A stretch of 64,000 bases of DNA from Limnanthes douglasii subsp. nivea. Lineage: Eukaryota > Streptophyta > Magnoliopsida > Brassicales > Limnanthaceae. Made by a program: the position numbers and the translations under genes. This document shows, piece by piece, positions 3,056 through 48,960 of the stretch. The notes below the pieces were generated by a model. That model made no database searches and was not told the origin of the DNA. It was given only the letters and a program-made list of their open reading frames with translations. The DNA is taken from the NCBI GenBank assembly GCA_036936605.1, contig JAUPFV010000004.1, positions 180,872,807 to 180,936,806 on the forward strand. The letters are read 5' to 3'. Each line of letters opens with the position of its first letter. Position 1 is the stretch's first letter.

Positions 3056-3755
3056 AATAAACACTTTTTTACTGAATTGTATGTTTTTGTTTTCCTTAGA
3101 TTAGGGTTACGTCTCTTTTTCCTTGAATTAGGGTTAAAACTTATCTTTTTTTACCTCTTTTGATTTTGGTCCTATATGAGTAAAAACTTGTTTGTTTAAT
3201 GGCAGATTATCCAAGATAAGTGTACGAACACCTTTATATACGAATCGCCCAAAACCCTAATCCAAAACTATAGAAATAATATAAACGCATTAAAACAGAA
3301 TCCTATCAAATACGAATGCAATCAAATTTGATATAATAATTAGAAAAAAACCTTATAATATTTAAAAAAATATTAAAATGTATTAAAATAAATATTTTGG
3401 TCCCTAAAACCTGTAATGTATGGCCTAAACTTCATGACGGGGAATTTAACCACTATCACATCTCCGACAATCAATGGGCTCTTCAAGACGCTCGGTTTGA
3501 GTACCAACTTAATCCAGTTTTGATATCCGAGTAAAAAATAAGGCATGTATGTGTTTGTCCATTAATGTATAGTAATTATGGGCCTCTGCTACTACATGAG
3601 ATGGGGAAGAGGGTTATATGGCCGATGATGATGCATGGGGCTTTGAGGTATTATGAAACTGGATGGGTATTAGATAACCATTAATTACATTATTTGGAAA
3701 CTAAGTGCTCAATAATGCTACTCGAGGTAATAGATGGCAGTAACTATTAGTGTTT
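3056..3755. other. Non-coding flank after the old pol; nothing recognised
   Basis: About 700 bp of AT-rich sequence follow the pol remnant. They include two AATTAGGGTT-type words and a run of AT-rich sequence at 3290-3410. This may hold the 3' untranslated region or a decayed LTR of the chromovirus, but no matching second LTR is in the window. No open frame stands out. Confidence 0.4.
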
Positions 3756-3760
3756 GGTAC
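3756..3760. repeat. Target site duplication GGTAC, left copy
   Basis: GGTAC directly precedes the TG of the left inverted LTR. The second copy follows the right LTR at 8531-8535. Five bases is the usual duplication length for Ty3/gypsy integrase. Confidence 0.85.
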
Positions 3761-4121
3761 TGATGAGTTAAAGTTTCACCTTGGTAAATTGTTATAAGAG
3801 TTTTCTAGAGAGAGAAAGAGTTAGAGAGTTTTTTTAGAGAGAAAGTTCAAGTACAAAAGAGTTCAATATAAAAAGTGTTCAACCCTTTTATTAGGTTAGC
3901 CTTGCCCTTTATATGGAGGAGCCAAGACTTAGCCTCAAGAGTAAAATCTATTACAAAAGAGGACAAATTGCTATTTAGTCCTTAGTAATTATACATAATT
4001 ACAGATGTTCTCTAAAACTTATATTACATGTAATTTAAAGACTAAACTTACATTATTTACAGTTTAATCCTTCAATTTATATTAATCACAATTTAATCTT
4101 CAAAATCCTACTTCCATATCA
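3761..4121 (-). repeat. Left inverted LTR of the palindromic composite
   Basis: This 361-bp LTR runs from TGATGAG to TATATCA-like ends. Its sense is minus, judged by the TATATAAAGG-type box near 3923 read on the minus strand. A C-rich run at 4122-4134 is the polypurine tract in reverse, marking this as a 3' LTR of a minus-sense element. Confidence 0.85.
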
Positions 4122-4587
4122 GAAGCCCCCCTAGATCTCATGTTAGTAAATGAATGAGAACTAAAATGTCTTCGAATTCCTCTGTATGTCATGTCAGTTG
4201 TTGTAAAATAAACTCGAAGAAATCATTTAAAGTAATCATTCGAAGCAACCATTCGAAGAAACCACTAGAAGCAACTATTCGAAGCGGGGTAAAAAATAAA
4301 TACCAATTAGAAGTAACTAAAATCTGATAAATTCTCAAAGCGAATAAGTCTCCTCGAATCATTGTGGAATTAAAACCTTTAAAACATACTCATCGACTTT
4401 TATCCAAACAGTTTACAAAAGTAACCGTTTCATATAGTCGTTCGAATCCATCATGACTTTATAGCTTTTAGACCCATAGCTAAGATACCTAGCCTGACAG
4501 ATGTCGAGCTCTTAATCTCCTCACCGCTTTGTATTCTACGGTATCACTGTCAAAGTCCTTTAAACTTCACACGTCTCCTTTTCTTTC

Positions 4588-4595
4588 TATAAATT
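4588..4595 (+). promoter_or_regulatory. TATA box ahead of the antisense gene, left arm
   Basis: TATAAATT lies about 170 bp before the ATG at 4762. Equivalent boxes occur at 38740-38747 (element A), 40509-40516 (element B) and 7732-7739 (right arm, minus strand). The constant placement supports a promoter for the antisense gene. Confidence 0.5.
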
Positions 4596-4761
4596 CAATC
4601 AATATCCTCATTTTTTCATTCTCATAACACAAATAATTTCAGAGAAAATTCAAAGCGCTTGGCTACCTTCATCGTGTTCCTCCTTTTTCCCGTATTTTCA
4701 TCAGAAAAAACCAAACTCTTCGATCAACCTTCATCTTCTCTGATCAACCTTCAGCTGGTTT

Positions 4762-6822
4762 ATGAGAAAAAATCCAAGAACCAGAAAATCCAAGGCTAGC
4801 ATACCCAAAAATCCGAAATATGCAGAACCTGATAACAACTTAGTATTTGGATCGTACGACTATTTCTGTATTACTCAAAGAGCAGAAGAATATAGAGCCG
4901 CATGATTAATCAATAGAGCTCATGTTGGAACAACCACCAAAACAATTTATTATGGTAATTCCGATCCAGCCAAAGCTTCTTCTATTTCTCCTTCTCCTAT
5001 ACTTGAAGAACTTTGATCATCCAAAATCCTAGGTCCTAAAACACCTCGAGCCTCTTCATCTCAAGTAACATTTTTATTTTTATTAGTGAATAATCTCATT
5101 TAAGGAAAAAGTCAAATACTCCATATTCGAATCATTCTTCAATAATCAGAAGAATAAGAAGAAGAAGAACTTTCATTTCCATGGGAGACGAATCAGAAAT
5201 TATCCCAACTCCTCCCCCTTCGAATCCAGATACTGAAGCTCCTCCTCAGAGAAAAGTAACTAAGGAAGTTCCTCGAACAAATCACCTCTTACCAGAAATT
5301 GTTAATTCATTACCCCAACAACCTCGAGAAGAAACATCAAAGGCCAACGAAGCTGATTTTGAGGCTACCAGAACCGATCTCGAAGCTGAATCCGATGATG
5401 GGAACTCAACAAATACCCATAAGCCTCAGGAAGACATAGATACTTGCTTTGTTTCCGAAGAAGAAAGAGCTGTAATTGGTAGAAATTTAAGGGGTCTCGA
5501 AGCTAAGTAAATCATTGCTCTGAAAAACGTTCAATATAATTATTAGAAGTATAGCCAAGCTTCAGTTTTAAAAAAACAATGGGGAATGAGAGATAATATA
5601 ACTCTTCGTCTGCTTAAAAAAGGAGAAACTCCCTTAGACTACAAGGATGACGAGCTAGTAGTCTACCCCGCAATCATCAAGTGGGGTCTTCGGGTTCCAC
5701 TGGATCCCATGATCGTGGAATACTTCAAAATTCTTAACTTATGCCCTCCTCAAGTGACACTGAGTCAGTGGTTCACCCTTATGTAAGTGATAATGGCATC
5801 TCGACTATCTCAGATTCCAATCAACATCCAAGACTTCATCTCATTAACTCAACTATCGAAAGGTCAGAAGCTTCCCTTTTACTATCTCACCCTGGTATAT
5901 TACCTCAAAATCAGCGATGATCTCTTAGAAGCTGATAAATTTTGGAAGCAGAAATTTATCTTTATATTAGGAGCATGGGAGAATGGCAAATAAATTTCTG
6001 ATGCTAATCCTTCAAAGCTAAATCTCATCTGAAGAAGCAATCGTAAGCACTTCGAACTTTTTACATTCTGAAATAAATTATATTTTTTGCCTTTCTCTTT
6101 CCTTAATTTTCTTCTTGCATGATTATTCCAGAATTTCGAGGCGTCATTCAGCACATCCACCAGCTGCTAAGGATATTTTCCAAAAACTTGCTGTTTGGGC
6201 TGAGAAAGAGTGGAATAATGCGTTTCACACTGCCTTCCAGCCCATCAATTTCCTCAACTGCCACATGTTCCCAATCTCAGAGGGTGCCTTGCCACCTCAA
6301 AATTTAATGTTAGAGCCCGATTCGAAGATAATCTGCAAAAGGTTAGTTCATCCCGATTATAAAGTCTTCCTTCGTATTCGCAACGGATCTGAGATTCATT
6401 TACCAAAAAAAGAAGAAAGAAAAAGTTATCAAAGAGAAAAATGGTAAAAAAAACAGCTAGCACATCAGGTGTTAGCCCTTTAACTCTATCGAAGCCAAAG
6501 CCTCGAAAAAGAAAAACTGCAGAAAAAAAACCCTCTCATCCATCGAAGAATGGAAAGATCAAGAACCGTCTTTGAAGAAAAAGAAAGGTTCTTCCAGCTC
6601 CATGGAAAGAAAAAGATACAGGCGAGAATCACTTCGTATACAGTGGTCGATAAAGACGAAAACACTATTGAAAACCAACAAAACCAATAAAATCTTTTGG
6701 TTGAAGAACAGACAACCAAAGACAACACTGTGATCATCATCGAAGACAATGCTACTAATGAAAATCAGGCTACTAAAAACTTTGATTTTGATATTTTCAT
6801 TAACTTTGAAAACACTGATGTA
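4762..6822 (+). pseudogene. Antisense-strand gene of a Tat-type element, left arm copy (broken)
   Basis: The gene starts at the ATG at 4762 (MRKNPRTRKSKAS) and runs against the sense of its LTR. Recognisable blocks are NLVFGSYD, IYYGNSDPAKA, MGDESEIIPT at 5181, CFVSEEERAVIGRNL, then the central domain with WGLRVPLDP, QWFTLM and MASRLSQIPINIQDF, then AWENGK. An intron at 6043-6131 follows. After it come AVWAEKEWNNAFHTAFQPINF and a basic, lysine-rich stretch. The central block resembles the Pfam family called putative gypsy-type transposon (PF04195), function unknown. Stops (for example near 4902 and 5508) break the frame. The copy ends at the palindrome junction near 6826, before the coiled-coil tail seen in element A. 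Confidence 0.75.
6043..6131 (+). other. Intron in the antisense gene, left arm copy
   Basis: GTAAGC at 6043 follows GAAGCAATC. The acceptor is TTATTCCAG at 6123-6131, after a pyrimidine-rich stretch. The length is 89 bp. The same codon position is interrupted in element A (50392-50483) and element B (41917-42000). Confidence 0.7.
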
Positions 6823-6825
6823 CTT

Positions 6826-7564
6826 AGCTTCAAGATTGCTTAAATTTTTGTCAATTGCAGCTCTTTCTTCTTCGTAAACAAAGCAAATATCCATTTCTTC
6901 CTGAGGCTTATGGGTATTTGTTGAGTTCCTATCATCTAATTCAGCTTCGAGATCGGTTCTGGTAGCCTCAGAATCAGCTTCGTTGGCCTTTGATGTTTCT
7001 TCTCGAGGTTGTTGGGGTAATGGATTAACAATTTTTGGTAAAGGGTTATTTGTTCGAAGAACTTCCTCAGTTACTTCTCTCTGAGGAGGAGCTTCATTAT
7101 CTGGATTTGAAGGGGGAAGAGTTGGGATAATTTCTGATTCGTCTCCCATGGCAATGAAAGTTCTTCTTCTTCAGATTATTGAAGAATGATTCGAAGATGG
7201 AGTATTTTATTTTATTTTCCTTAAAGGAGATTCTTCACTAATCAAAGGATAAATGTTACTTTGAGATGAAGAGGCTCGAGGTATTTTAGGACCTAGGATT
7301 TTGGATGAGGAATGTTCTTCGAATATAGGAGAAAGAGAAATAACAGGAGCTTTGGTTGGATCGAAATTACCGTAATAAATTGTTTTGGTGGTTGTTCCAA
7401 AAGGAGCGTTATTCATTAATCCTGCAACTCTATATTCTTCCGCTCTTTGAGTAATATAGAAATAGTCGTACCATCCAAAGACTAAGTTGTTATCAAGTTC
7501 TGGAGATTTCGGTTTTTTGGGAATGTTAGCCTTGGATTTTCTGGTTCTTGGATTTTTTTCTCAT
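6826..7564 (-). pseudogene. Antisense-strand gene of a Tat-type element, right arm copy (truncated)
   Basis: On the minus strand the ATG is at 7564 (the TTTATGAG context matches the left arm). The blocks NFDPTKAP, KILGPK and MGDESEIIPT at 7149, then CFVYEEERAAI, match the left arm closely. Homology stops at LEAKY near 6830, where the sequence passes into the reverse strand of the left arm. The continuation of the open frame to 6559 is therefore an artefact of the junction. Only the N-terminal part is present: no central domain, intron or tail. Confidence 0.75.
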
Positions 7565-7731
7565 AAACCAGATGAACGTTGATCGAGGAAGATGAGGGTT
7601 GATCGGAGAGTTTGATTTTTTCTGATGAAAATACTGGGAAAAAAGAGGAACACAGTGAAGGTAGCCAAGCGCTTTGAATTTTCTCTAAAATGATTTGTGT
7701 TGTGAGAATGAAAAAATGAGGCTATTGATTG

Positions 7732-7739
7732 AATTTATA
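7732..7739 (-). promoter_or_regulatory. TATA box ahead of the antisense gene, right arm
   Basis: TATAAATT on the minus strand, about 170 bp before the ATG at 7564, mirrors the left arm box at 4588-4595. Confidence 0.45.
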
Positions 7740-8156
7740 GAAAGAAAAAGAGACGTGTGAAGTTTAAAGGACTTTGATGGTGATAGGGTGGAATACAAAG
7801 CGGTGAGGGGATTAAGAGCTCGACATCTGTGAGGCTAGGTATCTAGTTATGGGTCTAAAAGCTATAAAGTCATGATGGATTCGAACAGTTATATGAAACA
7901 GTTACTTTTGTATATTGTTTGGATAAACGTCGATGAGTTTGTTTTAAAAGTTTTACTTCCACAATGATTCAATGACACTTATTTGCTTTGAGAATTTATT
8001 AGATTTTAGTTACTTCTAATTGGTATTTGTTTTTTACCCCACTTCGCTTCTAGTGGTTGCTTCGAATGATTGCTTCGAGTTTATTTTACAACAACTGACA
8101 TGACATACGGAAGAATTCGAAGACATTTTAGTTCTCATTCATTTACTGGCATGAGA

Positions 8157-8170
8157 ACAAGGGGGGATTC
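8157..8170 (+). promoter_or_regulatory. Polypurine tract of the right arm
   Basis: ACAAGGGGGGATTC lies directly before the TG of the LTR at 8171. This marks that LTR as a 3' LTR of a plus-sense element. The mirror copy is the C-rich run at 4122-4134. Confidence 0.7.
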
Positions 8171-8530
8171 TGATATAGAAGTAGGATTTAAGGATTAAAT
8201 TGTAATTAATATAAATTTAAGGATTAAACTATAAATAATGTAAGTTTAGTCTTTAAATTACATGTAATATAAGTTTTAGAGAACATATGTGATTATGTAT
8301 AATTACTAAGGACTAAATAGAAATGTATCCTCTTTTGTAACAGATTTTACTCTTGAGGCTAAGTCTTGGCTCCTCTATATAAAGGGCAAGGCTAACCTAA
8401 TAAAGGGGTTGAACATTTTTTCTATTGAACTCATTTATACTTGAACTTTCTCTCTCTAAAAACTATCTAACTCTTTCTCTCTATAGAAAACTCTTATAAC
8501 AATTTACCATGGTAAAATCTTAACTCATCA
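8171..8530 (+). repeat. Right inverted LTR of the palindromic composite
   Basis: This 360-bp LTR runs from TGATATAG to ACTCATCA in plus sense. A TCTATATAAAGGGC box and a CTAATAAAGG signal lie about two thirds of the way along. It is followed by GGTAC at 8531-8535. Confidence 0.85.
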
Positions 8531-8535
8531 GGTAC

Positions 8536-13495: not shown

Positions 13496-16167
13496 ATGTC
13501 TAAACTACGAGTTTCTATTTTAAAACATGGTCACCAAACTACAATTGTGCCTTTCACGGAGTTTGCAAGCTTTCAAAGTATCCAAGAGTACGTTGAAAGC
13601 ATATAATAGGACCTGATCATAGACAACTACATTATTACCTACTCCTGCGGGTATCAAAAGAATTGTGTCTTTAATAATAAGAAATATTTTGTTGGTTTAG
13701 AATTATATCTTGATTTGGAGCGTTTAAAACGGGTTAGTTATATCATAGAACATCAAGTCATTGATAAAGGTTTTGGTGATAAGGGTTTTGGTCAAAAGCG
13801 TAAATAGACATGAGAGAAACCTCTCATAATCAACTAACTAACGGGGAGAGTAGTTATGGTTTAGTTAATTCTGATCAGAGGAAAAAACAACTTGCTACTA
13901 CTGGTTGGATTGATGCTATCACAGGTGTTGGTCAAACTTTTGAAGAAGGTGTTCCTGCTCTAAGGTTATCTTTATGCCGATACACTTTAGAGCTTGGTTT
14001 TCTTTCAAATACATGCATAATACAGCAAACAAGATCACTACTTATTATGAAAATAAATTCTCAAGCGGGTGCAATTGGGGACTTTATGCTTCAATTGATT
14101 CCAACAACGGCTTAATGATTATTAAGAGATATGTTTCGCACCATACTTGCAGTCTCGTTTACTCCAAAAAAGAAGAAGCATATGTATTTGACATCAGATT
14201 TGGTTATAGATGAAAATTATGATTCTATCTGGACATGTCATTCGTTGACAGCCAAAACGATACAATCGTCTATCAAACAAGACTACAGTTTAGATATCTC
14301 CTATCGTCTGTCATGGAATGTTTTAGAGAAGGCACTGAGGGGAGTTTTTTAAGATAGTTCAAGTTCTTTTAGTTAATTAAGGGGGTATTTCAGACAATTC
14401 AAGAGCCGTGATATTACTACCGACTGCTAATTGGAATTATCAGCTAGAATACTTTTTAAATAATTTTTTTATAGCTATCGGTTCATGTCTTCAAAGTTTC
14501 CATTCATGCCGCTCGATGTTGTATGTCCATGGAACCCACTTGACCGGCAAGTATAAGGGTGTCTTGGTTTCTTTCGTAGGAAAGGACGGGATGAATAGTT
14601 AGTTTCGTGCTTTTTTTATAATTTGATAGATTGCGAGAATTTCTAAAAATTATAACATATAAATCGCGAATTGTTTGTCAACTAAGTGAGAGTTTTTTAA
14701 TGTTCTGTGAGTTCTTTTCACAAATATATTTATACACGTAACTGCGAGTTGTTTTTTAACTCATTGAGAGTTGTCTGATTGATCATGAGTTGTTCCCATA
14801 TAATATAGTTATGCGAGTTGTTTGACTTATCATATGCAAATTATGTGTATTCTACATACAGGTGTGAGTTGTTCAATATAGTATGTACATGTGAGTTGTT
14901 TAAGTTATATTTTGTATAATATACACATGCCACTTTAATACAACGTAATGCAAGTTGCGTTGTAACACATATCGCGAGTTGCGTTGTAACAGATATTGTG
15001 TGTTGTGTTGTAACACGCGTTGCGAGTTGTTCAGTAACAGATATTATTGATTAGAGGTATCGCGAGCTCTTTTACAATTGACATTACGGTTTGTGTAAAT
15101 CATTTGACCATGCTTGTCTTTTATTTCAAGATTGTTCTCTGTTGCGTTTGCAATCGTAAGAACTGAGGATTCTGACAATTGGTTGTGGTTTTTTAAGTGC
15201 TAAAAAACTCATTTGCTAGAGCGCCAAATCACATTTATTTCGGACCGTCATGTAGGTATCATTAATGTGTTTTTGTCTTGTATCCAAACTGTTTTCATAT
15301 ATACTGTTATTTCCATCTTGTTCAGAAAATGAGAACTGCTCTGGATCACACTGAGAGAGACTATAAGTCTAGTATGCTAAGTTTCTTCCATCGTCTTGTT
15401 TATGCTCCCACTCAAGATGTTTTGAAGGATATACTAATAGATTTTCTATCTGAAGATAGTGATAGAATTACAAATAATGTTGAAAATTTGCCTCCGGATA
15501 AGTATGCTCAGGCATTTCTTAAAGGGAAACGATACGGGGCAATGGCTTTTACTGCGTCCAAATTTTTTAACGCACAGATCAAAAAATATTATGGGCTACC
15601 CATTATTGAAGCCATAGACCGGATTAGAGTCTTTCTTATGACTCAAGTTTCACGACAATATCAAGAGGCACTAAGCTGGAGTACTAATTTATGCCCCGAG
15701 TATGAAAAAAAGATTAAAAAAAAAATAAATGCCAAACTTGGGTAGTCCGTAAGTCTTCTGCATTCGCGTTTGAAGTCTTTGCAGAACCCGTATTGGTTTT
15801 TAATATGCTAGATTTCAAAGTTTCTTGCGGTGCATGACAACAAGAGTGTTTTTCATGTCCTCACGCATTAGCGGCAATACAATCTACCCAGAATGATCCT
15901 CTTACGATAATAGAGTCACTCTTCACGGTTAAAAATTACAAGTCAAGTTACTCTTTCAGCATACCAGCGATAACGAATTTTAACAAAGGATTAAGCTCTA
16001 ACAATATGTTGGAGCCAAAAATTCTGCCTCCCAATGTAAAAAGACACCCCGGAAGGCCTAAGAAAAAAAGAATCTCGTCTAGAGGAGAAGCGACAACCAA
16101 GCACTTAAGGTGTGGGTGTTGTATGAAAGCAGATCATAACACGAGGACATTTGAGGCTCGAGTTTAA
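13496..16167 (+). pseudogene. MULE (MuDR-type) transposase, broken
   Basis: A likely start is the ATG at 13496 (MSKLRVSILKHG). The MuDR N-terminal domain follows at about 13930-14190, with VGQTFEEG, FKYMHN, WGLYAS and HHTCS in shifting frames. The transposase core begins with AKTIQSSIKQDYSLDISY (about 14255), then FIAIGSCLQSFHSC and GTHLTGKYKGVLVSFVGKDG (to about 14595). After an intron (14598 to about 15130) it resumes with VAFAIV, SDNWLWF, ISDRHVGI, then KGKRYGAMAFTASKFFNAQI (about 15525) and IRVFLMTQVSRQYQ. A SWIM-like CPHALAAI lies near 15870 and a zinc-knuckle tail, GRPKKKR to ADHNTRTF, near 16050-16150. The stop is at 16165-16167. Frameshifts and stops make it non-functional as it stands. 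Confidence 0.8.
14598..15130 (+). other. Intron of the MULE transposase gene, packed with GCGAGTTGTT-like words
   Basis: GTTAGT at 14598 begins the interruption between KGVLVSFVGKDG and VAFAIV, two blocks that are adjacent in known MULE transposases. The likely acceptor is TTATTTCAAG near 15130. About a dozen or more copies of GCGAGTTGTT or near variants lie inside it. Confidence 0.55.
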
Positions 16168-17320
16168 AGATCGATCTGTTTGGTAAACTAATCTTCCATA
16201 GTTGTGATATATGTGTTTTTATCAATGCGAGTTGTTTACTACAAACATTTGCGAGTTGTTTACATTACAATGTGAAAATGAGAGTTGTTTGAATACTAAG
16301 ATAACGAGTGTTTAATGTATCATTTGCGAGTTGTTACTATTGATATTGCGGATTGTGTACTTATCATTAAGGAAATGGGAGTTGTTTGTATGTCCTTCCT
16401 ATGAGTCTTCCCTTTATATTAGTCACGACCGTCAGCGAGTTCTTTGTAAATATAATTTTGGTTTTGCTTTGCGAGTTGTTTGGATACTACTATCTTGAGA
16501 GTTGTTTGTAATTCAAACGCTAACATTGATATATACACAACTAGAGCGACTTGTTTGTATATTATTATCATGAGAATTGTTGTTAATTATATATAACGCG
16601 TTGTATGAATTGATGTTCAGAGAGTTGTTTAGGATAAGATTCAAAGAATTCTTTAGGAATATTCAGAGAGTTCTGTGTAATTAGAAAGAGCGAGTTGTTA
16701 TGGATAATGAACTAGTGCTATTAAGCATTATAAACTTTTTACACCAATAGAAAGTTTATACCAAAAGATATTATAAGGCCATAACAGCCTACGTGCACTC
16801 AACCTTTCCAAAAAACTACTACTATATTTAGGGTTGGTTAGTTTGAATTAAAAAAACAAAAGTAGTAATAATTAGTCATCAATATAAGATTCTTCATCAT
16901 GACACTTAACTTCGCGTTCATCGTCAACATCTTCCTAGAGGTCATGCGCATCATCTACCTACATCCCAAGCACTTGAGGTGTGGCCATTTTTCGAAAGCA
17001 AGTCATAACATGAGGACCTGTGAGGCTCCAGTTTAAAGATCGATATGTTTGGTATATTAATATGCCATAATTGCGAGTTTTTTTTTATCAATGCGAGTTA
17101 TTTACCAACAAACATTTGCGAGTTGTTTACATTAGAATGTGAAAATGAGAGTTGTTTACATATTGAGATAACGAGTGTTTTGTGTATCATTTGCGAGTTG
17201 TTAGTATTGATATTGCGGATTGTGTACTTACCGTTGAGGAAATGGGAGTTGTTTGTATCTCCTTCCCATTAGTCTTCCATTTGTATTAGTCACGACCGTT
17301 GGCGAATTATATGTAAATAT

Positions 17321-20835: not shown

Positions 20836-21020
20836 GATTTGCAGTGTAAGAAACGTTTCGGGTTCAAAATAGTCACATTGTTTCATCGTTGGTCACTAAT
20901 GTTGGTCTTTTATTTACATTTTTGTCACCACTAGTGACAATAAATGTAAAAAAATTTAACTCGATCGGCAATTTTGAAACAAATGCCTAACTCCGGTGAC
21001 TAATGAAATTTCTTAGCCTA
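20836..21020. other. Unexplained 185-bp filler between element D and the tandem array
   Basis: The stretch belongs neither to D nor to the MULE unit. It contains an imperfect hairpin: TTTACATTTTTGTCAC at 20913-20928 against GTGACAATAAATGTAAA at 20934-20950. It may be a small MITE or repair filler. Confidence 0.4.
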
Positions 21021-24000
21021 TATGTATCATTTTTGTATTGTTACTATTGATATTGCGGATTGTGTAATTACCGTTGAGGAAATGCGAGTTGTTTGTATCT
21101 CCTTCCCATGAGTCTTCCCTCTGTATTAGTCACGACCGTTGGCGAGTTATATGTAAAATAATATGTTGGTTTTTCTTTGTAAGTTGTTTGGATACTATTA
21201 TCTTGAGATTACTTTGTAATTTAAACACTAACATTGGTATGTACACAACCAGAGCGAGTTGTTTTTATATTATTATCATGAGAGTTGTTGTTAATTAGAT
21301 ACAATGAGTTGCATGAAACGGATTCAGAGAGTTGTTTATGATAAGATTCAGAGATTTCTTTAGGATTAGATTAAAAAAGGTCTGTGTAATTAGAAAGAGC
21401 GAATTGTTATTGATAATGAACCAGTGCTATTAAGCATTATAAACTTTTTACACTAATAGAATTTTTATACCAGAAAGAGATTATAAGGCCATAACCTCCT
21501 TCGTGCATTCAACCGTTCCAAGAAAACTATTACCATCATTAGGGTTGGTAAGTTTGCATGCAAAAAAAAAACAAAGGCAGTAACAATCAGTCATTTGTAC
21601 AGTAGTCTTTATCTTAAGACTTTTCTTCACATTCATCATCGGTGTTTTCCTAGGGGTCCTCCTCACCATCTACCTGCATTCCAAGAACTTGAAGTGTCGC
21701 CGTTTTTCGAAAGCAGGTCATAACAGGAGGACCTATGGGGCTCCAGTTTAATGATCGATCTGTTTGGTATATTAATCTGCCGATAGTTGCGAGTTGTTAG
21801 TTTTTATCAATTCAAGTTGTTTACTACAAACATGGGCGAGTTGTTTACATTACAATAAGAAAATGATAGTCGTTTGAATACTGAGATAACAAGTGTTATG
21901 TGTATCCTTTGCCAGATGTCACTATTGATATTGCGGATTGTGTACTTACCGTTGAGAAAATGGGAGTTGTTTGTATTTCCTTCCCATGAGTCTTCCCTCT
22001 CTATTAGTCACGACCGTTGGCGAATTATATGTAAATATAGTATTTTGGTTTTGCTTTGCGAGTTGTTTGGATACTATTATCTTGAGATTTTTTTGTGATT
22101 TAAACGCTAACATTGGTATGTACACAACTAGAACGAGTTGTTTGTATATTATTATTATGAGAGTTGTTCTTAATTAGATACAACGAGTTGTATGAAATGA
22201 GATTCAGAGAGTTTTTTATGATAAGATTCAAAATGCTCTTTAGGATAAGATTAAGAGAATTCTGTGTAATTTGAAAGAGCACATTGTTATAGATAATGAA
22301 CCAGTGCTATTAAGCATTATAAACGTTTTACACTAATAGAAAATTTATACCAGAAAGAGATTATAAAGCCATAATAGCCTTTGTGCACTTAACCCTTCCA
22401 AAAAACTACTACCATAATTAAGATTGGTTAGTTTACATGCAAAAAAACAAAGGCAGTAACAATTAGTCATCAGTAGAGGAGTTTTCATCTTGAGACTTTT
22501 CTTCGCGTTCATCATTGACGTCTTCCTAGAGATCCTCCTAGAACTTTAGGTGTGGCTGTTGTTCGAAAGCAGGTCATAACAGGAGGATCTATGGGGTTCC
22601 AGTTTATAGATCGATCTGTTTGGTATATTATTCTGGCATAGTTGTGAGGTGATTGTTTTTATCAATTCGAGTTGTTTATTAGAAACATGGACGAGCTGTT
22701 TACATTAAAATATGAAAACGAGAGTCATTTGAATATTGAGATAACGAGTGTTCTGTGTATCCTTTGCATTTTGTTACTATTAATATTGCGGAGTGTAATT
22801 ACCATTGAGAAAATGCGAGTTGTTTGTATCCCCTTCCCATGAGTCTTCCCTCTGTATTATTCACGACCGTTGGCGAATTATATGTAAATATAATATGTTG
22901 GTTTTGCTTTGCGAGTTGTTTGGATATTATTATGTTGAGATTTCTTTGTAATTTAAACGCTAACATTGGTATGTACACAACTAGAGCGAGTTGTTTGTAT
23001 ATTATTATCATGAGAGTTGTTCTTAATTAGAAACCACGAGTTGTGTGAAATAAATTCAGAGAGTTCTTTATGATAAGATTAAGAGAGTTCTTTAGGATAA
23101 GATTAAGAGAGTTCTTTGTAATTAGAAAGAGTGAGTTGTTATGGATAATGAACCAGTGCTATTAAGAATTATAAACTTTTTAGACTAATAGAAAGTTTAT
23201 ACCATAAAGAGATTATAAGGCCATAACAACCTTTGTGCACTCAACCCTTCCAAAAAACTACTACCATCATTAAGGTTGGTTAGTTTGCATGCAAAAAAAA
23301 TAAAAGGAGTAACAGTTAGTCATCAATAGAGGAGTCTTCATCTTCAGAATTCTTTTCACGTTCATCATCGGTGTCTTCCTAGAGGTCCCCCTCACCATCT
23401 ACCTGCATCCCAAGAACTTGAGGTGTGGCCGTTGTTCGAAAGCAGGTCATAATAGGAGGACTTATGAGGCTCTAGTTTAAAGATCGATCTGTTTGCTATA
23501 TTAAGCTGCCATAGTTGCGAGTTGTTTGTGTTTATCAATGCGAGTTTTTTACTACAAACATTTGCGAGTTGTTTACATTACAATGTGAAAATGACAGTTG
23601 TTTGAATACATATATAAGAGTGTTATGTGTATCATTTGCGAGTTTTTACTATTGACGTTGCGGATTGTGTACTTACCGTTGAGGAAATGGGAATCGTTTG
23701 TATCTTCTTCCCATGAGTATTCCCTCTGCATTAGTCATGACATATGTAAATGTAATATGTTGGTTTTGCTTTGCGAGTTGTTTTTGGATACTATTATCAT
23801 GAGATTTCTTTGTAATTTAAATGTTAACATTGGTATGTACATAACTAGAGCGAGTTGTTTGTATATTATTATCATGAGAATTGTTGTTAATTAGATACAT
23901 TGAGTTGTATGAAATGAGGTTCTAAGGGTTGTTTATGATAAGATTCAGAGAGTTCTTTAGGATAAGCTTCAGAGAGTTCTGTGTAATTAGAAAGAGCGAG

Positions 24001-24259
24001 CTATTATGGATAATGAAACAGAGCTATTAAGCATTTAACAATTTTACACTAAAAGAAATTTTATACAAAAAAGAGACTATAAGGTCATAATAGCCATCGT
24101 GCACTGAACCCTTCCAAAAAACTACTACCATCTTTAGGGTTGGTTAGTTTGCATACAAAAAAAACAAAGGTAGTAACAATTAGTCATTAGTAGAGGAGTC
24201 TTCATCTTGAGACTTTTTTTTTGCGTTCATCATCGATGTCTTCCTAGAGGTCATCCTTA

Positions 24260-27200
24260 CCATCTACCTCCATCCCATGGTCCTCCTACGACGTACCAAC
24301 ATCTTCCTTCTCTTCCTCTGTCTCTTCTCTTTTCTTTTTCCTGTCTGGAACCTTGGTTGGTTGAGGGTCAACCACTAACTCAACCAACTCAACTAACCCA
24401 GAGTCAGCAGAGAAGTAGTCGAGGTCAAAATCTAGTATAGAGGTTGGGTTGTTGGGTGGTGCCAACAGATAGATAAGCCGGAGTTTCTTATGGTCGTTAT
24501 GGAAGACCATAAGTCTCCTAACGAACCACAACTTGACATGGTAATTAGAGTTTAATATATGTTAAATGTTTTATTTGAAGAGTTTATTATTTAATTAGTT
24601 TATGAAGACTAATATTTATAGGAATTGAGGGAGTCCTATTGTAGTAGTGTATTGGTTATGATAATGATTAAACCTCCTCTGTCAAATCAGCAATAAATTG
24701 GATGACGTGATTATATGGTTTTTTGCTTGCTCAATGCATATATCGGTTACCAAGGCAGACGCTCAAGGCATTTCGTATTCATCGAGATATTGCGAATTAT
24801 TTTATTATAATTCTATCTAAGAGTGGTTATGTAATTGTACTTAGTATATAGCAACTTTTAAGTAAAAATTCAAGCACATATTGCGAATTTTTTAGTATAA
24901 ATTCAAAAGTGAGAGTTGTTAATTACTGCACAAACACGGATTCTTTAGTAGTCAATTTTTATACACGTCGCGAATTGTTATGTAGAACTCAAGGGTGAGA
25001 GTTGTTAACTGTTAGACAGACACAAATTGTTTGAAGGTAAAATGGATAACCGTTTGCGAATTGTTTTATATACACCAAAAAATTCCAAATCAATATATTT
25101 AAACAAATGAGCCATGCAGCAATTGTGGAGCCAATCAATATATGTACACCAAAAAATCTGAACCAATAGATGACTATCGTTGTTGGTTAGTGTTTTCATC
25201 AGTTAGGAAATAATAAAGCATTCCATCTCTCATATCTCTTACCATATCTTTCCGGCAAGTCTTCGGCAAACATCATTTTTCGATAATATCTTTGGTATAT
25301 TGACAAATGAAAATACCATAGTCGAGAATGCCTTGTTTTTGTTGTAGAATCCCTCAGGTATTCTTACATTATATCGATTTTTTACTGGTTAAGTATCCCT
25401 TCTCGACACAATATTCCAATTATTGATAAGAGTTTGTGTCACAAATCAGATATTAATAAACAGTGAATTGTTTCATAAACATTGTTGCGAGTTGTTTATT
25501 ATATCACCAATTATTTAAAAAAATAACAATATAGAATTGATAACTAGCATCATATTACGAATTGTTTTGAAAGACCAAGATAGAATTGTTTTTAAGTAGC
25601 TTCTGTGATTTGTTAGCAATTAAATTCAGCGAGTTGTTTGAAACACTTTTTACCCTACGAATCTTAAAACATGGTAAAATCTTACCAGCGGAACAGCCGT
25701 CCTTGCTGTGTAGTCCGTTGCATGATTTTTAAGAGGCAGAAGCGGGTTATAGTTTGTTGTTGTCCTTTCGTCTATATCAATAACAACCAATGTCCAATGG
25801 TTCATTATATACTTCTTAACGTTGCACACTCGAATGAGCACAATATTCGTGTCCTCCCTTATGCTTTTAAATACTTCGTCTACTATATGTGTCATGTCCT
25901 CTCCCGTGGACATTTTGTATTGCATTCAAAGAAAAAGTACATTTCAACAAGAACATGAGAATTTTTTGTAGTTTATAGCTAAACTTACCGTAATCATGCC
26001 AGAAATTTGTATAGCGCTGTATTTGGCGGTATGGAAACCTTTACACGCAATTTTCTAATATACTGCTTTGAGCATCTTTAGAATCCAAGCGTTAACAACC
26101 TACCAAATAACAGATAAAGCGAATTGTTTAGGAAATCCAACAAAGCGAATTGTTTGAAAATACCAATATAGTTGTTTTAATCATATTCTGTGAGCTAACA
26201 ACGCTAAATGTATTAGATAAAGGAAGAGAATAATTGTTTGAAAAAAATCATCATATAGTGTATAAAACAGCCAATTGCAAGAAAAGTCGAATTGCATGAA
26301 AAATGATCTGCATGAAACTGAGTTGTTTGAGAAGATTATCAGATAGTGTATTAAACAGCAAATTGCAAAAAATAAAAATTGCATAAAATGAGAATTGCAT
26401 AAAACGCAAATTGCATGAAACACGGGAAGAGCGAGTTGTTTGTAACTGTGTACCTTATAGTCCAAGTGTCATTGGAAGGGTAGCAACAACACTTCATCAC
26501 GGCCACGTGAAGTCTGTAGGGAAACTGGGACATTGTTAAATACCATACTGATGGATCTTCCCCATCTTGTCTGCTTTTAATTATTTGTACTTTCCAGTAT
26601 TTATGGACATCGATCAGTTTAATTGTTGGTGTAGTCTTTGGCCAATCAATTAGATTTACCGCTTCCATTGTCGTCGGAGCTTCTAAAACACTTAACTCTT
26701 CCACCGACGGCTGTATCAGATTCAGTAGATTCAAATTAGGTAGTATGACATCCTCTTCTACTATCTCTTCCATTTACTTTGAACATATAAAGGTGGCTTT
26801 CAATACCCAAAAAATCCAAACTACACACCTTTTATGTATAATTATTTAAAAATCAACTTACCACACTATCTGCAACGATCAATATTGTTGACTCCTCTGG
26901 AACCTTCTCAGCATCACCAGCTTGACAAAGTCTATTAAACGCATCCTCTATAATATTTTCCAAATTCTATTGTATCATAACATCCAACTCAATATTATCA
27001 ACTTTATCCAAAACCGACTGTGTAAACTGCGACTAATAAGCCCCCAAGGGGTAGCCGAGTTGGTTGAGTATGGCATTCTTATGACCAAAAGGTCATGAGT
27101 TCGAGTCCCTCTACATACGCTTTCTCGGCTGAGCCTGCCACCTTGTGTGGTTTACCTTCTGGCGTTGGTTTGCAGGCTATCGCGTCAGACTGAGGGTTTA

Positions 27201-37479: not shown

Positions 37480-38043
37480 AGATGACTTGCTGTAAGAAGA
37501 TAATTCTTGGAAAACGCATTTCTTGTTCGTTAACGGATCTTGGGAGAATGATCGAGCTTATTCCAACGAGAACAACCACTCGAGACGATTCTCGCGCTCG
37601 TGGATATGCCAAAGTACTTATCTCAACATAATTCATATTTTTAGCTTTAGATATTAAATATACTGCTTTATTATTAGCAGTTCAAATGTTGAAGCTGCAA
37701 TCTTTGAGGAAGAGGTACACGATAGTTACGGAGATGACCATCACACGACTGAATACCTGGGCTTGGGAGAACTGGGTGGATGAGTTTCAAAGGTGCTTTA
37801 CGCCCTTGAACCTTATCAATAACCATGTTTGGAACTCCTCAGAGGGTAATCTGATTGAAGATCATTTGATAATACTCTTAAGGACGTCGTTGTCATGAAA
37901 ATGTTGAATTCTCCTGATGTGCGAGCTATGCCTCCCAAATGAAAGAGGGTGCCCATTCATCGAGTTCTAAAGAAAAAAGTCGTGGAAACCCATGTGCAGA
38001 TGAAAACAACGATCAATGTTATTGCCCCGGGAAACGTGGCTAC
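37480..38043 (+). pseudogene. Antisense-strand gene of element C, middle part
   Basis: ENAFLVRxGSWENDRA-type sequence at about 37508-37560 matches the FLFVSGAWENDK block of element B. A probable intron follows (GTACTT near 37615 to TTATTAGCAG at 37680), at the same position as in A and B. The next exon reads RLNTWAWENWVDEFQRCF, then NNHVWNSSEGNL. The frame is cut at 38043 by element A. The copy continues at 59827. The 5' part of this gene, including its promoter, is missing. Confidence 0.6.
38039..38043. repeat. Target site duplication GCTAC of element A, left copy
   Basis: GCTAC precedes the LTR at 38044. The second copy follows the other LTR at 59827-59831. Confidence 0.9.
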
Positions 38044-39025: not shown

Positions 39026-40168
39026 TGGTGTGGATAATTATCGCCTGAGGGTAGGCTTGCAATTTGGTTGGTGTTTTACAATAGTATGTGGGTGTTATGT
39101 GTTTAGAGTAGAGAGTAGATAGATAATTAAGCTGGCTGGTAGCAGTTAATTCTTATTCTTCACACTTATTGCAGGTGGTTGGGTATTTAGACCCTGATGT
39201 TTGGGCCCTTATGGGCTTTCGGGTCATGTTTAATGGATCCGGGTCATGTTCAAAGATCCATGAGCTCTTAAGTAAGAGAGCAAGTAGCTTAGTCAAGAAG
39301 TGTTTAGGGTTTTAAGTAATTTTATCATAGTTCGAACAGTCCTATGGTCTGAGTGTTCGAAGTGATCTGTCCGGTCCGGAGGCATCGGAGCGAACTGTCC
39401 TAGTCCGGGGAGTAGGGCTGTCGATGGTTCTCCGGAACCGAGAACCGGATCGGGACCGAACCGATAAGGACCGGACCGAGAACCGGACCGAATCTTAACG
39501 GTCCGGTTCGCGGTTCCATTCTAAAAACTGAAAACCGATAAGGAACCGAAACGAAAAACCGGTTAGGAACCGAACCGATAGAACCGATAGAACCGATAGA
39601 ACCGATAGAACCGATAAGGAACCGAACCGATAAAACCGACAGGACCGAAAGAACCGATACGGAATCGAACCGATAAAACCGATAAACCGGTAGAACCGAT
39701 AAGAAATCGGACCAATAAAACCGTTAAAACCGATTATTTATTATTATTATATATTCTTTTATAAATTATTGTACCAAAATTAATAGTTAATTACTAATTT
39801 TTTAAACTTTAGTTTTTATATCATTTATTTTAATAAAAAAAAATTAAAAATCAATTTTTAATTGATTTTATTTTTTTAAGTGGACCGAACCGGACCGAAA
39901 CGGGACCGGACCGAACTCGGACCGAACCGAACTCGGACCGAACCGAAACCGGAACCGAACCGAACCGGACCGAACCGGACCGGACCGAACCGAACCGAAC
40001 CGAAAGCTTAGCGGTTCGGTCCGGTTCCAAAAATTAGAACCGAAAGCTTAGCGGTCCGGTTCGGTCCGAACCGATAAGCTTAGCGGTCCGGTCCGGTTCC
40101 TTCAAAACCCGGACCGAACCGGACCGATAACAGCCCTACCGGGGAGCATGCAGAATTCAGACTCATCA
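39026..40168 (-). repeat. 3' LTR of element B, interrupted by a hAT element
   Basis: It runs from TGGTGTGG to ACTCATCA. The LTR parts are 39026-39412 and 40147-40168; the rest is the hAT insertion plus one copy of its 8-bp duplication. Without those it is 409 bp, the same as its partner. Confidence 0.9.
39413..40138. mobile_element. Non-autonomous hAT element (726 bp)
   Basis: Terminal inverted repeats are TAGGGCTGT at both ends. The 8-bp duplication CCGGGGAG lies at 39405-39412 and 40139-40146, as expected for hAT. There is no coding capacity. The outer parts are dense in ACCGAACCGG-type words and the middle (39735-39870) is AT-rich. Near the right end, AAGCTTAGCGGTYCGGT occurs three times (about 40003, 40045 and 40078). 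An empty site is given by the partner LTR near 49350. Confidence 0.9.
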
Positions 40169-40508
40169 GGAGCCCCTTTTTTAGGTGTTTGTGCAAATAC
40201 TCTTGCCAAAGACATGAAAAACAGTCCGACATCAGGGGTAGTTTTTATCCGGATAGGTCTGTCAATTTGGGCTATGGGTTTATCCGGACAGATAAAGCTT
40301 CACGAATTCAAAACGGTTTTTGCCAGAGTTCGTGGGACACGTGTCGCTCTCTGATTGGTTGCTTCAACCGTTTTTTCACCTTCAATTTCGAACCCACCTT
40401 CTTCGAAAAGCAACCTCTTAATTAAAGGTGGTGACATCAGCGCCGTCTTTTAATCATTGCCAAACTTTTCGAATTCTCCTAGGAATCAACTTCCTTTTTC
40501 AGATTTAC

Positions 40509-40516
40509 TATAAATA
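40509..40516 (+). promoter_or_regulatory. TATA box ahead of the antisense gene of element B
   Basis: TATAAATA lies 102 bp upstream of the ATG at 40618, with a CA/CT-rich leader between. Confidence 0.55.
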
Positions 40517-40617
40517 CAAACTCACTTTCTACTGTTTTACCATCTCCTTCAAATTTACTCTACAAAATCTCTCAAAGCTTTCTCTCTCTAAAGCAAAAAC
40601 TTTGTTTGATAGTTTAT

Positions 40618-43481
40618 GTTTACAGCGAGGAACGCTCTTGTCAAAGGCGGGTGGCTCAACCTTTCTGAGTTAGAGAAGGCTCAAAAAGTCGAAAGAGATA
40701 GACGGATCGCAACAGGGTTACCCACCTCGCCTGTTAATAGACCAATCACCTCTGCTACCGAGTCAGACCGAGGCTCTTCTTCTTCCAAAGGCACTAAGCC
40801 TAGAAAACTATTTCAAACCAACCTCTCCCCCATAATCTCTGGTTCCTCAGTTCAGGAATCGGAGCCTGCTGTCGAGCCAGGAGTTACAACCACTAGCATA
40901 AAAAAACCCTCTCCCTTCATAGCAATGTGATCGGATACAGAGCACTCTCCTGAGAAGCTAGTCGATAGGAGGAGAGGCCGATTGGTTAAAGGCCAAGGGT
41001 CTAAAAATACACCCTCTAAGTCGGGGGAAAAAGACAGCAGCACCGGGTCAGAGGTGCCTATTAGAGCCCCCAAGGACAGGCTGTCCGGAGAGCAGAAATC
41101 AAAGGGGTACTGAGGCCCATTAGTCCGGAGACAAGGCTGAATCAAATTTGAACCCTCCCCCCACTACAGCTGCTGAAATCCCTTCAACAATTATGGAGGA
41201 AGTGATGGAGGACTCTGTTGAAGAGGCCCCATTTGAGTCTGAGCCCTCCGGTCAGACCAGCAAAGAGATAGTTGCCAAGAAGGATAAGGGCAAGGAAAAA
41301 TTGTACTTGAGGCATCCGGATCTGCCGGAGAGCCTAGAAGGAAACGTGGGGCCTTGTTTTCACAAGGTCAGCGTTAATTACCTCCTCTCCTTACAAAAAA
41401 TCAACTACGCATTCATCCACACTGCTGAGCTGGGCAGGATGCATACGAAGTGGGGCATACCAGAAAACGTAAAGATCAGGATTCCTATACACCCGGAGAC
41501 TCTTATGGATTGCAAGTTAAGCGAAGTGGTCATATTCACGGAGTTATTCAACTGGGGGCTCAGGTTCCTATTAGACCCAGAGATTGTCAGATATTTCCAT
41601 CTGATAAAACTCTGTCCGAGCCAACTGAGCCCCAACTCTTGGTACACCCTCATGTCTTGCATCATGGCATCAAGGCTGTCCGGGATCCCTCTGCCAATGG
41701 AGGAGTTTGCTGCAGTGGCCAACCTGTGTAGAAACCACCACATCCCCTTTTACCACTTTAACATGGGGGATGACTTCAAGGCGGTGGATGATCTGTTGGA
41801 GGCAGAGAGGAATTGGAGGACCAAGTTCCTATTTGTCAGTGGTGCTTGGGAGAATGACAAGAAGATCAAATCCGGAGAGAACCCAAGCCTCCTCGGAAGC
41901 AGGTGGAGGAGTGACCGTAAGTTCTCTACTTTATAATTTTGTTTCTTCCTTTCTTTTCTAACGTAGTTCGAACTAATAGGTCTCACTTTTTCCTTGGTAG
42001 TACTGCCCAAGGAGTTTAGTGACTATCAGAAAGCCGGGCAGGTTACTTGTGGCAAGATTAATGCCTGGGCTGCTGAGAGATGGGGGAATCGATTCCATGC
42101 TGCTTTTACCAGTGGCAACTTGGCAAGGTCTCACATGTGGAATACCACAGGTCGGAGAGACTTGAATTGGGAGGAGCTCACCACCCAGCCTCCTCCAGAC
42201 GTTGTGCTTAAAAGGACCCATGAACCAAATGGGACACTCTTCCTGCCAGGCCGGGCCAAAGCCCCGAGCAAGATGAAAGGCAAGAAGAAGAAGGGCAAAA
42301 ATGTGGTGGGTGATGCTAACCCTCCTGATGCAGAGAAGGATGCTCCAACAGATCCGGAGGGGCTAGCCCAGAGCCAAATTGATGCTGCTCTCCTGGAAGT
42401 GGCGGAGCAAGAGACTGAAAAACAAGAAGCGAACCTCCCAAAACCTCAAAGGGCTTCTAAGAGGAATCGTAAACAGGGAAGCGAAGGCACAGACCAGGAG
42501 GCCAAGAAGAAGAAAACTTCTAAGGTAGACGAGCTTTCTCTCCGGGCTCCGGAGCCTTCTGTCCATGCTGACCCTACTGACCCAACACATGCCGAGGAGA
42601 TTCCGGGCGACTTTCATACTGATGAGGTTGAGGGGGGAGATATCAACATCGATGGAGTTGACATCACCGGTCTTGGTGAGCTTGGTGAATACTTCCTCAA
42701 TCTTCCCAGAGATGACTTTGCCGGGCCTTACCTTCCTCCAAGCACCTCCAACACGGTCACTTTTAATGGTAAGACTTTTAGTGTTTCTAGTGAAAGGGAT
42801 CCCATAGCCCACCCTTTGTTGAGTAACGTGCAACCTGTACTTGCGTTGGAGAGACAAGTTCGAAATCAGGCTGATATCATCAAAGATCTCAAGTCTGACA
42901 AAGAGAAGCTGTCCGACGACCTTCGTACTGCCACTTCCAATGCTGACATGTTAAAGGAAGAAAACGAGGAGTTGAAGAGAAACCAAAAGGCAAGCACCAC
43001 AAAAGTCGCCACTTTAGAGGAAACCATTAAAGACCTCCGGGAGAAACTGTCCGGTTTGGAGAAAGACCTTGCTACCTCAAATGGAGAATCCAATGCCAAA
43101 TATCAAATTATCTCCAACTTGACCAACGACAAGATTGCCCTTGAAAATGTACGGGAGCAGGAGGCCAAGATCCAAGCCAAGATCAATGCTTATGCTACCA
43201 GAATGATCGACAGTCAGGAGGAAATGTATGCCAAGGTGAGGTCTGACATGGTTCTACTCTTCCACGAGAAGTTTCTGAAGAGGAACCTAGGGGACTTATG
43301 GCTTCATGTTGAGCATGAAGACCTCCCGTATCATACGATGGCCGAAGGCGACCGGTATGGCTACTCTAGTGACTCCTCAGATGACGAAGAACACACCGAG
43401 GAGAAAATTGGCGAAGAGAAAGATGATCCTAAGGGAAAGAAGGTAGATGAAAGTGAGCCATCTTCAAAGGCTCAACCTTAA
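40618..43481 (+). pseudogene. Antisense-strand gene of element B (nearly intact, one intron)
   Basis: The ATG at 40618 gives MFTARNALVKGGWLN. The first block ends with KKPSPFIAM, then TGA at 40927. The remnant at 11936-12437 has GGA there, so this stop is a point change. The frame continues from about 41148 with the central domain: WGLRFLLDPEIVRYFHL, then SWYTLMSCIMASRLSGIPLP and FLFVSGAWENDK. The intron is 41917-42000; splicing keeps the frame. Exon 2 has AAERWGNRFHAAF, basic clusters (KGKKKKGK), a long coiled coil (about 42850-43230) and an acidic, serine-rich end (SSDSSDDEEHTEE). The stop is at 43479-43481. The gene lies between the end of pol and the 3' LTR and converges on pol. The central block resembles PF04195. 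Role unknown; nuclear or chromatin work is only a guess. Confidence 0.75.
41917..42000 (+). other. Intron in the antisense gene of element B
   Basis: GTAAGTTC at 41917 and TTCCTTGGTAG ending at 42000 give an 84-bp intron in phase 1. Joining the exons keeps the frame across WRSD and LPKEFSDY. The interior is T-rich, as plant introns are. Confidence 0.75.
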
Positions 43482-43967
43482 CTTATGATTTACTTTGTTT
43501 ACTTTTTATTCAGATCAAAGTCTTTGGAAGGCCAAGGCATTCTTTTTTGTAATTGTGTCCGGTATCTGACCGGACAGGTTTTTTTGTTCTACTCTGACCA
43601 TTCAAAAGTCCTTGGAAGGCCAAGGCATTTTAAGTTATTTCAATGAATGTTTCTGTTTTGCATAAATTTCATCTTCTTTCATTGTTTGTTCCAATTTTGA
43701 TGACTAGAGTTTAAGTAGCCTTTAATTATTTCATAGTGAGAGTGTTTAAGTTCTCCGGCTAGAGTTTAAATAGCCCTTAGTTATTTCAATCCGGATAGTG
43801 TGACAAAAGACAAAACTTAAAACACTTGGAATTTTTTTTAAGAAGGCATCAAATTTCATTCAAAAGCCCGGACACCTCATTAAAACCTCCCCGTGCCACC
43901 AGGGAGGAAAAAGTATGCCCCCAAATATTTACATGGATGTTTAAACAAGTAAATATTTACACAAATG
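43482..43967. repeat. Variable spacer of element B with short duplications
   Basis: This stretch lies between the convergent antisense gene and pol. TTGGAAGGCCAAGGCATT occurs twice (about 43524 and 43613). A block with CTAGAGTTTAA, TAGCC and TTATTTCA also occurs twice (about 43704 and 43761). Short tandem duplications in this part are known from Tat/Ogre elements. Confidence 0.6.
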
Positions 43968-47802: not shown

Positions 47803-47805
47803 TTT

Positions 47806-48164
47806 GTAGGGCATTCTCCCAATCATTTACGGGGAGTGCTCTAAAATGGTACAACAGCCTGCCTCAGGGTTGTATTAAAGATTTCGATACTTTTTGGGTA
47901 GCCTTTCGAAGGCAGTTTGTAGGGAGTAAAGAGCTAAAGGGCAATTGAGACACAATAATCCATTGTGCCCAGGAACCAAATGAGTCCTTGAAAGAATATA
48001 TAAGCCGTTTTGTGAACACCAAGAATGGGTTGGCTGATTGCTTCGAACATGTAGCAATAGCATCCCTAAGACAAGGTTTTAACCCATGCAATCTAGCTGA
48101 CTCAGTGACCAGAAAGAAGGCCATGACATGGGGAGGGTTGCTGAATCAGGTTGGGAAACAAATA
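47806..48164 (+). pseudogene. Inverted gag core segment inside element B
   Basis: On the plus strand this stretch encodes the retrotransposon gag core: CRAFSQSFTGSALKWYNSLP, then FVGSKELKGN, ESLKEYISRFVNT and RKKAMTWGGLLNQV. The gag parts on either side (up to DDDDKQRL, and from KKTRVHRQ) are on the minus strand. In element A the same core follows directly after FEDDDW on the same strand. About 360 bp have therefore been flipped in place. AATAAACGTTGTTTATC at 48161-48177 forms a small palindrome at one breakpoint. Confidence 0.8.
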
Positions 48165-48165
48165 A

Positions 48166-48888: not shown

Positions 48889-48940
48889 TCTGACAGATTT
48901 TCTTAGCTGGTTTTGAATTCTTGATTCAGGCACATTCTCC

Positions 48941-48958
48941 TCCCACTGTAGTCGCCAA
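48941..48958 (-). promoter_or_regulatory. PBS of element B
   Basis: TTGGCGACTACAGTGGGA on the minus strand, two bases inside the 5' LTR. Confidence 0.7.
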
Positions 48959-48960
48959 TT

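Follow-up and report, generated by a model that had tools for sequence, protein, structure and literature searches.

A retrotransposon insertion with inverted long terminal repeats and two outer U5 ends in Limnanthes douglasii: probable integration of an aberrant cDNA

How does a retrotransposon insertion come to have its two long terminal repeats (LTRs) in inverted orientation, a U5 (unique 5′) end on both outer sides and a matched target-site duplication around the whole? This question is raised by positions 3756 to 8535 of a 64,000-nucleotide stretch of Limnanthes douglasii subsp. nivea DNA (GenBank assembly GCA_036936605.1, contig JAUPFV010000004.1, 180,872,807 to 180,936,806 of the forward strand). 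This whole stretch is referred to as the window, and an earlier, sequence-only reading of it had drawn attention to the locus. As laid out below, the insertion very probably stems from a single integration, via two U5 ends, of an aberrant complementary DNA (cDNA) of a Retand-like (Tat) Ty3/gypsy retrotransposon. The results support its anatomy, single target site, junction, arm relationship and family-typical age.

Direct LTRs and outer ends of which one is U3 (unique 3′) and one U5 are the mark of an ordinary insertion, and this insertion has neither. Its features, in the order of the plus strand, are:

3756–3760, no strand: left copy of the target-site duplication, GGTAC, which is single in five of seven insert-free paralogous sites
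3761–4121, minus strand: left LTR, i.e. the 3′ LTR of the left arm, with its U5 end outermost
4122–4134, minus strand: left polypurine tract (PPT), CTAGGGGGGCTTC on the minus strand, inside the LTR and positioned as in ordinary copies
4122–6815, minus strand: left arm interior, the 3′ region of a Retand-like element, 5′-truncated within the region of its antisense open reading frame (ORF)
5181–5510, plus strand: first open piece of the left-arm antisense ORF (MGDESEIIPTPPPS...), opposite to element sense
5526–6815, minus strand: segment between the inverted repeats that only the left arm has, collinear with ordinary copies
6816–6818, no strand: junction of the two 5′-truncated ends; its TGA is compatible with both and lies within a longer imperfect microhomology
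6819–8170, plus strand: right arm interior, the same 3′ region inverted relative to the left arm and truncated earlier
6819–7149, minus strand: truncated antisense ORF of the right arm, its frame open across the junction to 6559
8158–8170, plus strand: right PPT (CAAGGGGGGATTC), inside the LTR
8171–8530, plus strand: right LTR, i.e. the 3′ LTR of the right arm, with its U5 end outermost
8531–8535, no strand: right copy of the target-site duplication, GGTAC

Read on the plus strand, the left LTR runs TGATGAGTTA...TTCCATATCA and is thus in minus sense, while the right LTR runs TGATATAGAA...TAACTCATCA in plus sense. The left PPT, GAAGCCCCCCTAG on this strand, starts at 4122 and the last base of the right PPT is 8170, so that a PPT lies at both inner sides; an LTR on the side of a primer-binding site (PBS) is missing, whereas ordinary copies have both a PBS and a PPT. 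The coordinates and sense of the LTRs, the internal PPTs on both sides and the GGTAC at both outer borders were all as the sequence-only reading had given them, and both outer ends are U5. Its description of the element as palindromic holds for the inverted arms, which align at 88.7% over 1,772 columns (LTRs 92.8% and interiors 90.9% identical, gaps excluded). The palindrome itself is imperfect: the arms measure 3,055 bp on the left and 1,712 bp on the right, their interiors reach 2.7 and 1.35 kb beyond the PPT, and the 1,290 bp from 5526 to 6815 have no counterpart in the right arm. A pair of arms inverted over about 1.7 kb, together with a matched GGTAC, is far beyond chance. Two smaller features were noted in passing: the truncated antisense ORF of the right arm and its continuation in the left arm amount to 196 open codons (6559–7149), and the U3 part of the right LTR contains a 29-bp direct repeat at 8186–8243.

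The most obvious ordinary explanation is that two independent insertions in opposite orientation lost both of their 5′ halves to a deletion, with GGTAC occurring twice by chance. Recombination between neighbouring insertions is the usual way in which composite elements form (Sabot and Schulman 2007, PMC1950507). The family is also abundant, with at least 1,323 PPT–LTR junctions within three mismatches (control matches: 0), so opposite-orientation neighbours may occur. Yet the two targets would agree by chance in 0.5% of cases, and in GGTAC in particular in 0.06%, as estimated from 29 flank 5-mers (29 of 38 loci, nine unplaced; four of the 29 come from the other side of a pair that had contributed one already). 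Among 22 flanks following LTR ends, two of which (L009 and L025) are of uncertain class because their LTRs have no interior next to them in the sequence retrieved, the 5-mers were equal in none of 231 pairs. Around ordinary LTR pairs, by contrast, the 5-bp duplications matched in all five checked (GTTAT, GTATT, ACTTT, GTTGC and ATAAT).

The target site itself can be recognised elsewhere in the genome. A 28-mer joining the left flank, one GGTAC and the right flank has seven genome matches with two or three mismatches (reversed control: 0). These insert-free paralogous sites (L093–L099) represent one diverged repeat that reads through the target site, L095 being similar over short stretches only; GGTAC is single in five of them and replaced by GATAC in one and by GGTAT in another. 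BLAST across the joined flanks found similarity at four of the seven loci (65–88% over 50–170 columns) and none at E 0.001 at the other three. Because all seven run through without an insert, the flanks were probably adjacent, and GGTAC single, before the insertion. Judged from these sequences, the paralogous sites speak strongly against two insertions followed by a deletion, which is extremely unlikely also in view of the arms, shown below to be sisters with nearly equal branch lengths. The locus thus appears to be an integrase-made insertion into a once-continuous site with a 5-bp duplication. This bears out the earlier proposals of one integration with two U5 ends and against separate target duplications at each LTR. 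The empty GGTAC site that had been suggested as a check was found in the form of paralogues within the same genome, which differ from an orthologous site in a related accession. With the left flank as query, the 39 non-self matches among the best 40 scored of 465 candidates lay within query positions 50–444 and contained no empty site. As to its surroundings, the insertion lies about 14–22 bp from the end of the diverged repeat (3603–3760), and a different many-copy repeat covers about 3211–3602.

Could an ordinary insertion instead have been rearranged later, as DNA, by a fold-back inverted duplication or by inversion via repeats? The microhomology at the junction would fit replication-based events of this kind too. 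An inverted duplication reaching past the LTR, however, would have put a copy of the left flank on the right, and 2 kb of each flank compared by BLAST with the window gave the self-match only. Such an event must further end exactly at the LTR end, next to a copy of the target duplication that is direct rather than inverted, and the ordinary right outer end would be U3 where U5 is found. We therefore consider a later rearrangement very unlikely.

The identity of the inserted element follows from its relatives. An LTR query against the 1.78-Gb assembly returned 3,755 first-look candidates, of which the best 40 were scored and, excluding the query, are 88–93% identical. Of 20 fetched loci compared with the left arm, eight align over about 3.1 kb at 84.7–87.0%, four piecewise and eight in the LTR only. 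By alignment of the LTR and of the region between pol and the 3′ LTR, the arms appear to belong to a family of ordinary copies. These copies have direct LTRs, the PBS-like sequence AATTGGCGAC or a close variant directly after the 5′ LTR, and a PPT with the usual ending GGGGG(G)CTTC directly before the 3′ LTR. Among other observations on the family, two copies (L088 and L092; C112:179871956-179873745 and 179522355-179524145) lie 350 kb apart, and at G000:C334:193112098-193112801 two adjacent family LTR matches share one orientation with four bases between them.

The window holds a more distant, full-length relative, outside the insertion, that can serve for comparison:

38044–59826, minus strand: ordinary relative with direct LTRs and the duplication GCTAC at 38039–38043 and 59827–59831

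Its LTRs are 94% identical, and a second retrotransposon, with LTRs 96% identical, is nested in it at about 39026–49347. Reverse transcriptase (RT), RNase H and gag domains were found in the outer element, whereas the pol of the nested one contains RT, RT_RNaseH, RVT_3 and an integrase zinc-binding domain. Tat elements are marked by a second RNase H-like domain in pol. The insertion itself consists of two 3′ ends only and is without pol. An antisense ORF lies between pol and the 3′ LTR, and the one in the nested element has a homologue in the left-arm piece at 5547–5783 (40% identity, E 7e-21). Antisense ORFs in this region are described as typical of the Retand lineage, most of them with a TRP28 domain (PMC11963269). 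The TRP28 profile (PF04195) gave E 0.07, below the cut-off, with the nested element's antisense ORF and no match in the antisense ORF piece of either arm. Because the antisense ORF is present while TRP28 reaches only this value, and in the nested element only, the family is called Retand-like (Tat) Ty3/gypsy by architecture, an assignment that stays tentative at the sequence level. The 5′ part of the ordinary relative also contains a 236-bp direct repeat, 98% identical (58398–58633 and 58925–59159).

Where the two arms meet can be placed by comparison with ordinary copies, eight usable for the left side, where L024 is mis-placed, and 12 for the right. The last left-type base is C6815 and the first right-type base T6819, while the TGA at 6816–6818 fits both parents in most copies; the junction, previously put at about 6826, moves accordingly. 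Around it, the two parents also match over a longer but interrupted stretch. In a rough random-join test, the junction score was reached in 0.07–3% of joins for 11 of 13 copies, the extremes being L043 (none in 20,000 trials) and L044 (60%, with a mis-placed site and 14 mismatches). When a junction-spanning query was used, the window itself was the sole spanning match among the best 40 of 2,674 candidates; the other 39 end at query positions 219–227 or begin at 206–217.

The arms are, moreover, close relatives of each other. Placed with 45 other copies in a 47-sequence tree (47 of 72 rows were kept, and of the 25 below 80% coverage left out, 15 are about LTR only), they are sisters with a Shimodaira–Hasegawa-like approximate likelihood ratio test (SH-aLRT) value of 98.8 and a bootstrap of 100, and smaller trees of 14 and of 22 sequences (20 copies and the arms) likewise pair them. 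Their terminal branches are 0.0466 and 0.0484 long (median 0.056) and their shared internal branch 0.010. Only three of the 1,081 pairs are less distant than the two arms (0.091), and each arm is the nearest of the other among the 47. Eight rare states are common to both arms, a number exceeded in 11 of the 1,081 pairs; the next best partner shares four with the left arm and six with the right, and the mean is 1.4–1.6. Both arms also have a 26-bp gap present in three of 20 other copies. The LTR distance between the arms is 0.076 versus 0.064, 0.077, 0.064, 0.064 and 0.086 in five ordinary pairs; this supports a separation typical of sister LTRs in ordinary copies and an age typical of the family, as far as such distances indicate. 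By far the closest pair in the same set is L088 and L092 (0.034), perhaps owing to segmental duplication.

Several results weigh against this reading. The second half of the interior alone gives no arm sisterhood, and the approximately unbiased (AU) test, which rejects the left arm with L017 (0.031), leaves the right arm with L017 (0.24) or L018 (0.24) and the left arm with L012 (0.058) open. In BLAST, the left interior scores 1764 bits to L017 and 1755 to the right arm, and the left LTR tops the matches of the right LTR by just 1 bit (best 40 scored). Within the 22-sequence set, 6 of the remaining 230 pairs are closer than the arms by internal distance and 48 of them by LTR distance. Because of these AU, BLAST and distance results, two close but different parents are possible, and gene conversion between the arms could mimic sisterhood. 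The single integration, too, has points against it: at the empty sites, the shared repeat ends 14–22 bp to the right of GGTAC, i.e. the right-side homology is short (four BLAST-aligned loci of the seven), and the pattern that found these sites already contains 12 right-flank bases. Finally, the structure of the locus was read from the genome assembly alone. On balance, a single parent, or a co-packaged pair of nearly identical parents, is likely but not proven from these comparisons.

In an assembly of a high-copy family, a structure of this kind might also result from a misassembly near 6818 that joined unrelated element ends. A chance misjoin, however, predicts no shared site, arm kinship or microhomology, while the outer flanks here share one target site with contiguous paralogues, the arms are nearest relatives among 47 sequences and microhomology is found at the junction. 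There is thus very little chance that the locus is such an artefact.

How, then, could a molecule with two U5 ends arise? Once the first strand transfer has taken place, minus-strand synthesis proceeds through U3, the PPT and the region upstream; plus-strand synthesis from the PPT then makes the 3′ LTR double-stranded, with U5 correctly formed at its end. Two reverse transcripts of one parental element would have started normally in this way, each with a complete 3′ LTR, PPT priming and a correct U5 end, and both would have stayed unfinished, with their 5′ side missing, having stopped 2.7 and 1.35 kb beyond the PPT. Joined through microhomology, the unfinished ends would give a molecule with U5 on both sides. 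By its usual cut with a 5-bp stagger, integrase would then have inserted both U5 ends at a single site and duplicated GGTAC. Both cDNAs may have resided in one particle and been joined by end joining or by a minus-strand switch; a nascent minus strand turning onto a second minus strand would also match the plus-strand read-out. Joining would have preceded or accompanied integration, and joining of separately attached cDNAs afterwards would fit the sequence too.

Alternatively, one nascent minus strand may have self-primed: its 3′ end, at the left truncation, would have folded back, paired by way of the microhomology with an earlier stretch of the same strand and been extended back to U5, the resulting hairpin being opened later into a linear duplex. 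The strand from 3761 to 8530 is continuous and reads exactly as such a turn-round, complementarity exists at the turn (3 nt exact and a longer imperfect stretch), and the arms are sisters in the tree. Yet this route needs a loop of 1,290 nt, and a hairpin would offer one duplex U5 end, so that an extra step of opening or copying would have to precede integration. Self-priming ranks second for this reason and, within the reading of a single integration, is a possible but rather unlikely route; its share is contained in the probability given to that reading, the product and the two-U5 integration being the same. Two joined cDNAs, or an intermolecular switch, are preferred because the arms are unequal and two duplex U5 ends are needed, and within the same reading they are the probable, though far from assured, origin. 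Of the earlier proposal that template switching or self-priming created the molecule, the aberrant cDNA is therefore supported, while the two routes cannot be told apart with certainty.

Going beyond this locus, the exact PPT–LTR pattern occurs at 87 places (41 forward, 46 reverse), with the nearest listed minus-then-plus pair about 228 kb apart; the PPTs of the insertion itself both fail this pattern. The looser pattern behind the 1,323 places (0 in the control) lists the left PPT of the insertion and not the right, and the first 100 places listed are all exact. Inverted pairs with mismatched PPTs are thus invisible to this search. Among 41 LTR matches listed, the sole close inverted LTR pair is that of the window. 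The data do not support a class of elements that replicates in this form, a second junction copy being absent from the best 40 of 2,674 candidates.

It is tempting, if doubtful, to view front-to-front cDNAs with two U5 ends as a recurrent, overlooked class, in which the integrase of this lineage routinely accepts two identical U5 ends and whose products escape annotation that seeks direct LTRs; transcripts from the left-arm antisense ORF that run on into the right arm could in that case yield hairpin RNA directed at the family. More immediately, the locus looks like a natural record of two-U5 integration in a plant genome and suggests that reverse transcripts left unfinished can be joined to each other and yet integrate cleanly. 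It also provides a signature to search for, namely inverted LTRs with PPTs on their inner and U5 on their outer sides, together with a target duplication. Such loci would test the number of cDNAs per particle, the need of integrase for one U3 and one U5 end, and the origin of long inverted repeats that might feed small-RNA silencing.

Elsewhere in the window, long direct repeats at 16097–17320 and 21019–24277 (83–92% identical, offset by roughly 870 bp) resemble two parts of a short satellite array with about 3.7 kb in between. Tandem Repeats Finder (TRF), run on 15–26 kb with periods up to 500, found no array scoring 400 or more.

Which known systems does the insertion resemble? DIRS elements have inverted LTRs and a tyrosine recombinase and are not known to make a target duplication. 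The inverted LTRs are a likeness, whereas the insertion has a GGTAC duplication and its family makes 5-bp duplications. Foldback and other terminal inverted repeat (TIR) DNA transposons combine long terminal inverted repeats with a short target duplication. The repeats here, in contrast, are the LTRs, with adjoining PPTs, of a retrotransposon family that has over 1,000 copies, and a second copy of the junction was not found among the best 40 of 2,674 candidates. Tandem arrays, as described in PMC7215508, differ in layout from the insertion. Retand/Tat elements share with it an antisense ORF between pol and the 3′ LTR (PMC11963269), and with its relatives in the window RT and RNase H-like domains, the second RNase H-like domain being found in the nested element; ordinary members of this lineage, unlike the insertion, have direct LTRs, gag and pol.

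The closest parallel is offered by the ‘complex’ insertions attributed to template switching that are known for Angela, Squiq and Opie (Sabot and Schulman 2007, PMC1950507). These, too, are thought to stem from an aberrant cDNA made on two templates and integrated once, and their outer 5-bp duplication and similar outer LTRs are both found here. They consist, however, of direct tandem units whose outer ends are ordinary and which enclose an additional LTR, the third, whereas the present insertion has inverted, 5′-truncated units, no internal LTR and U5 at both outer ends. No description of an inverted two-U5 insertion was found in the titles and abstract openings of open-licence papers, a partial coverage of the literature, and within that coverage the earlier statement that no standard class has this layout agrees with what was searched. 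The insertion is best seen as an inverted variant of the known template-switching complex insertions, with good evidence for one case.

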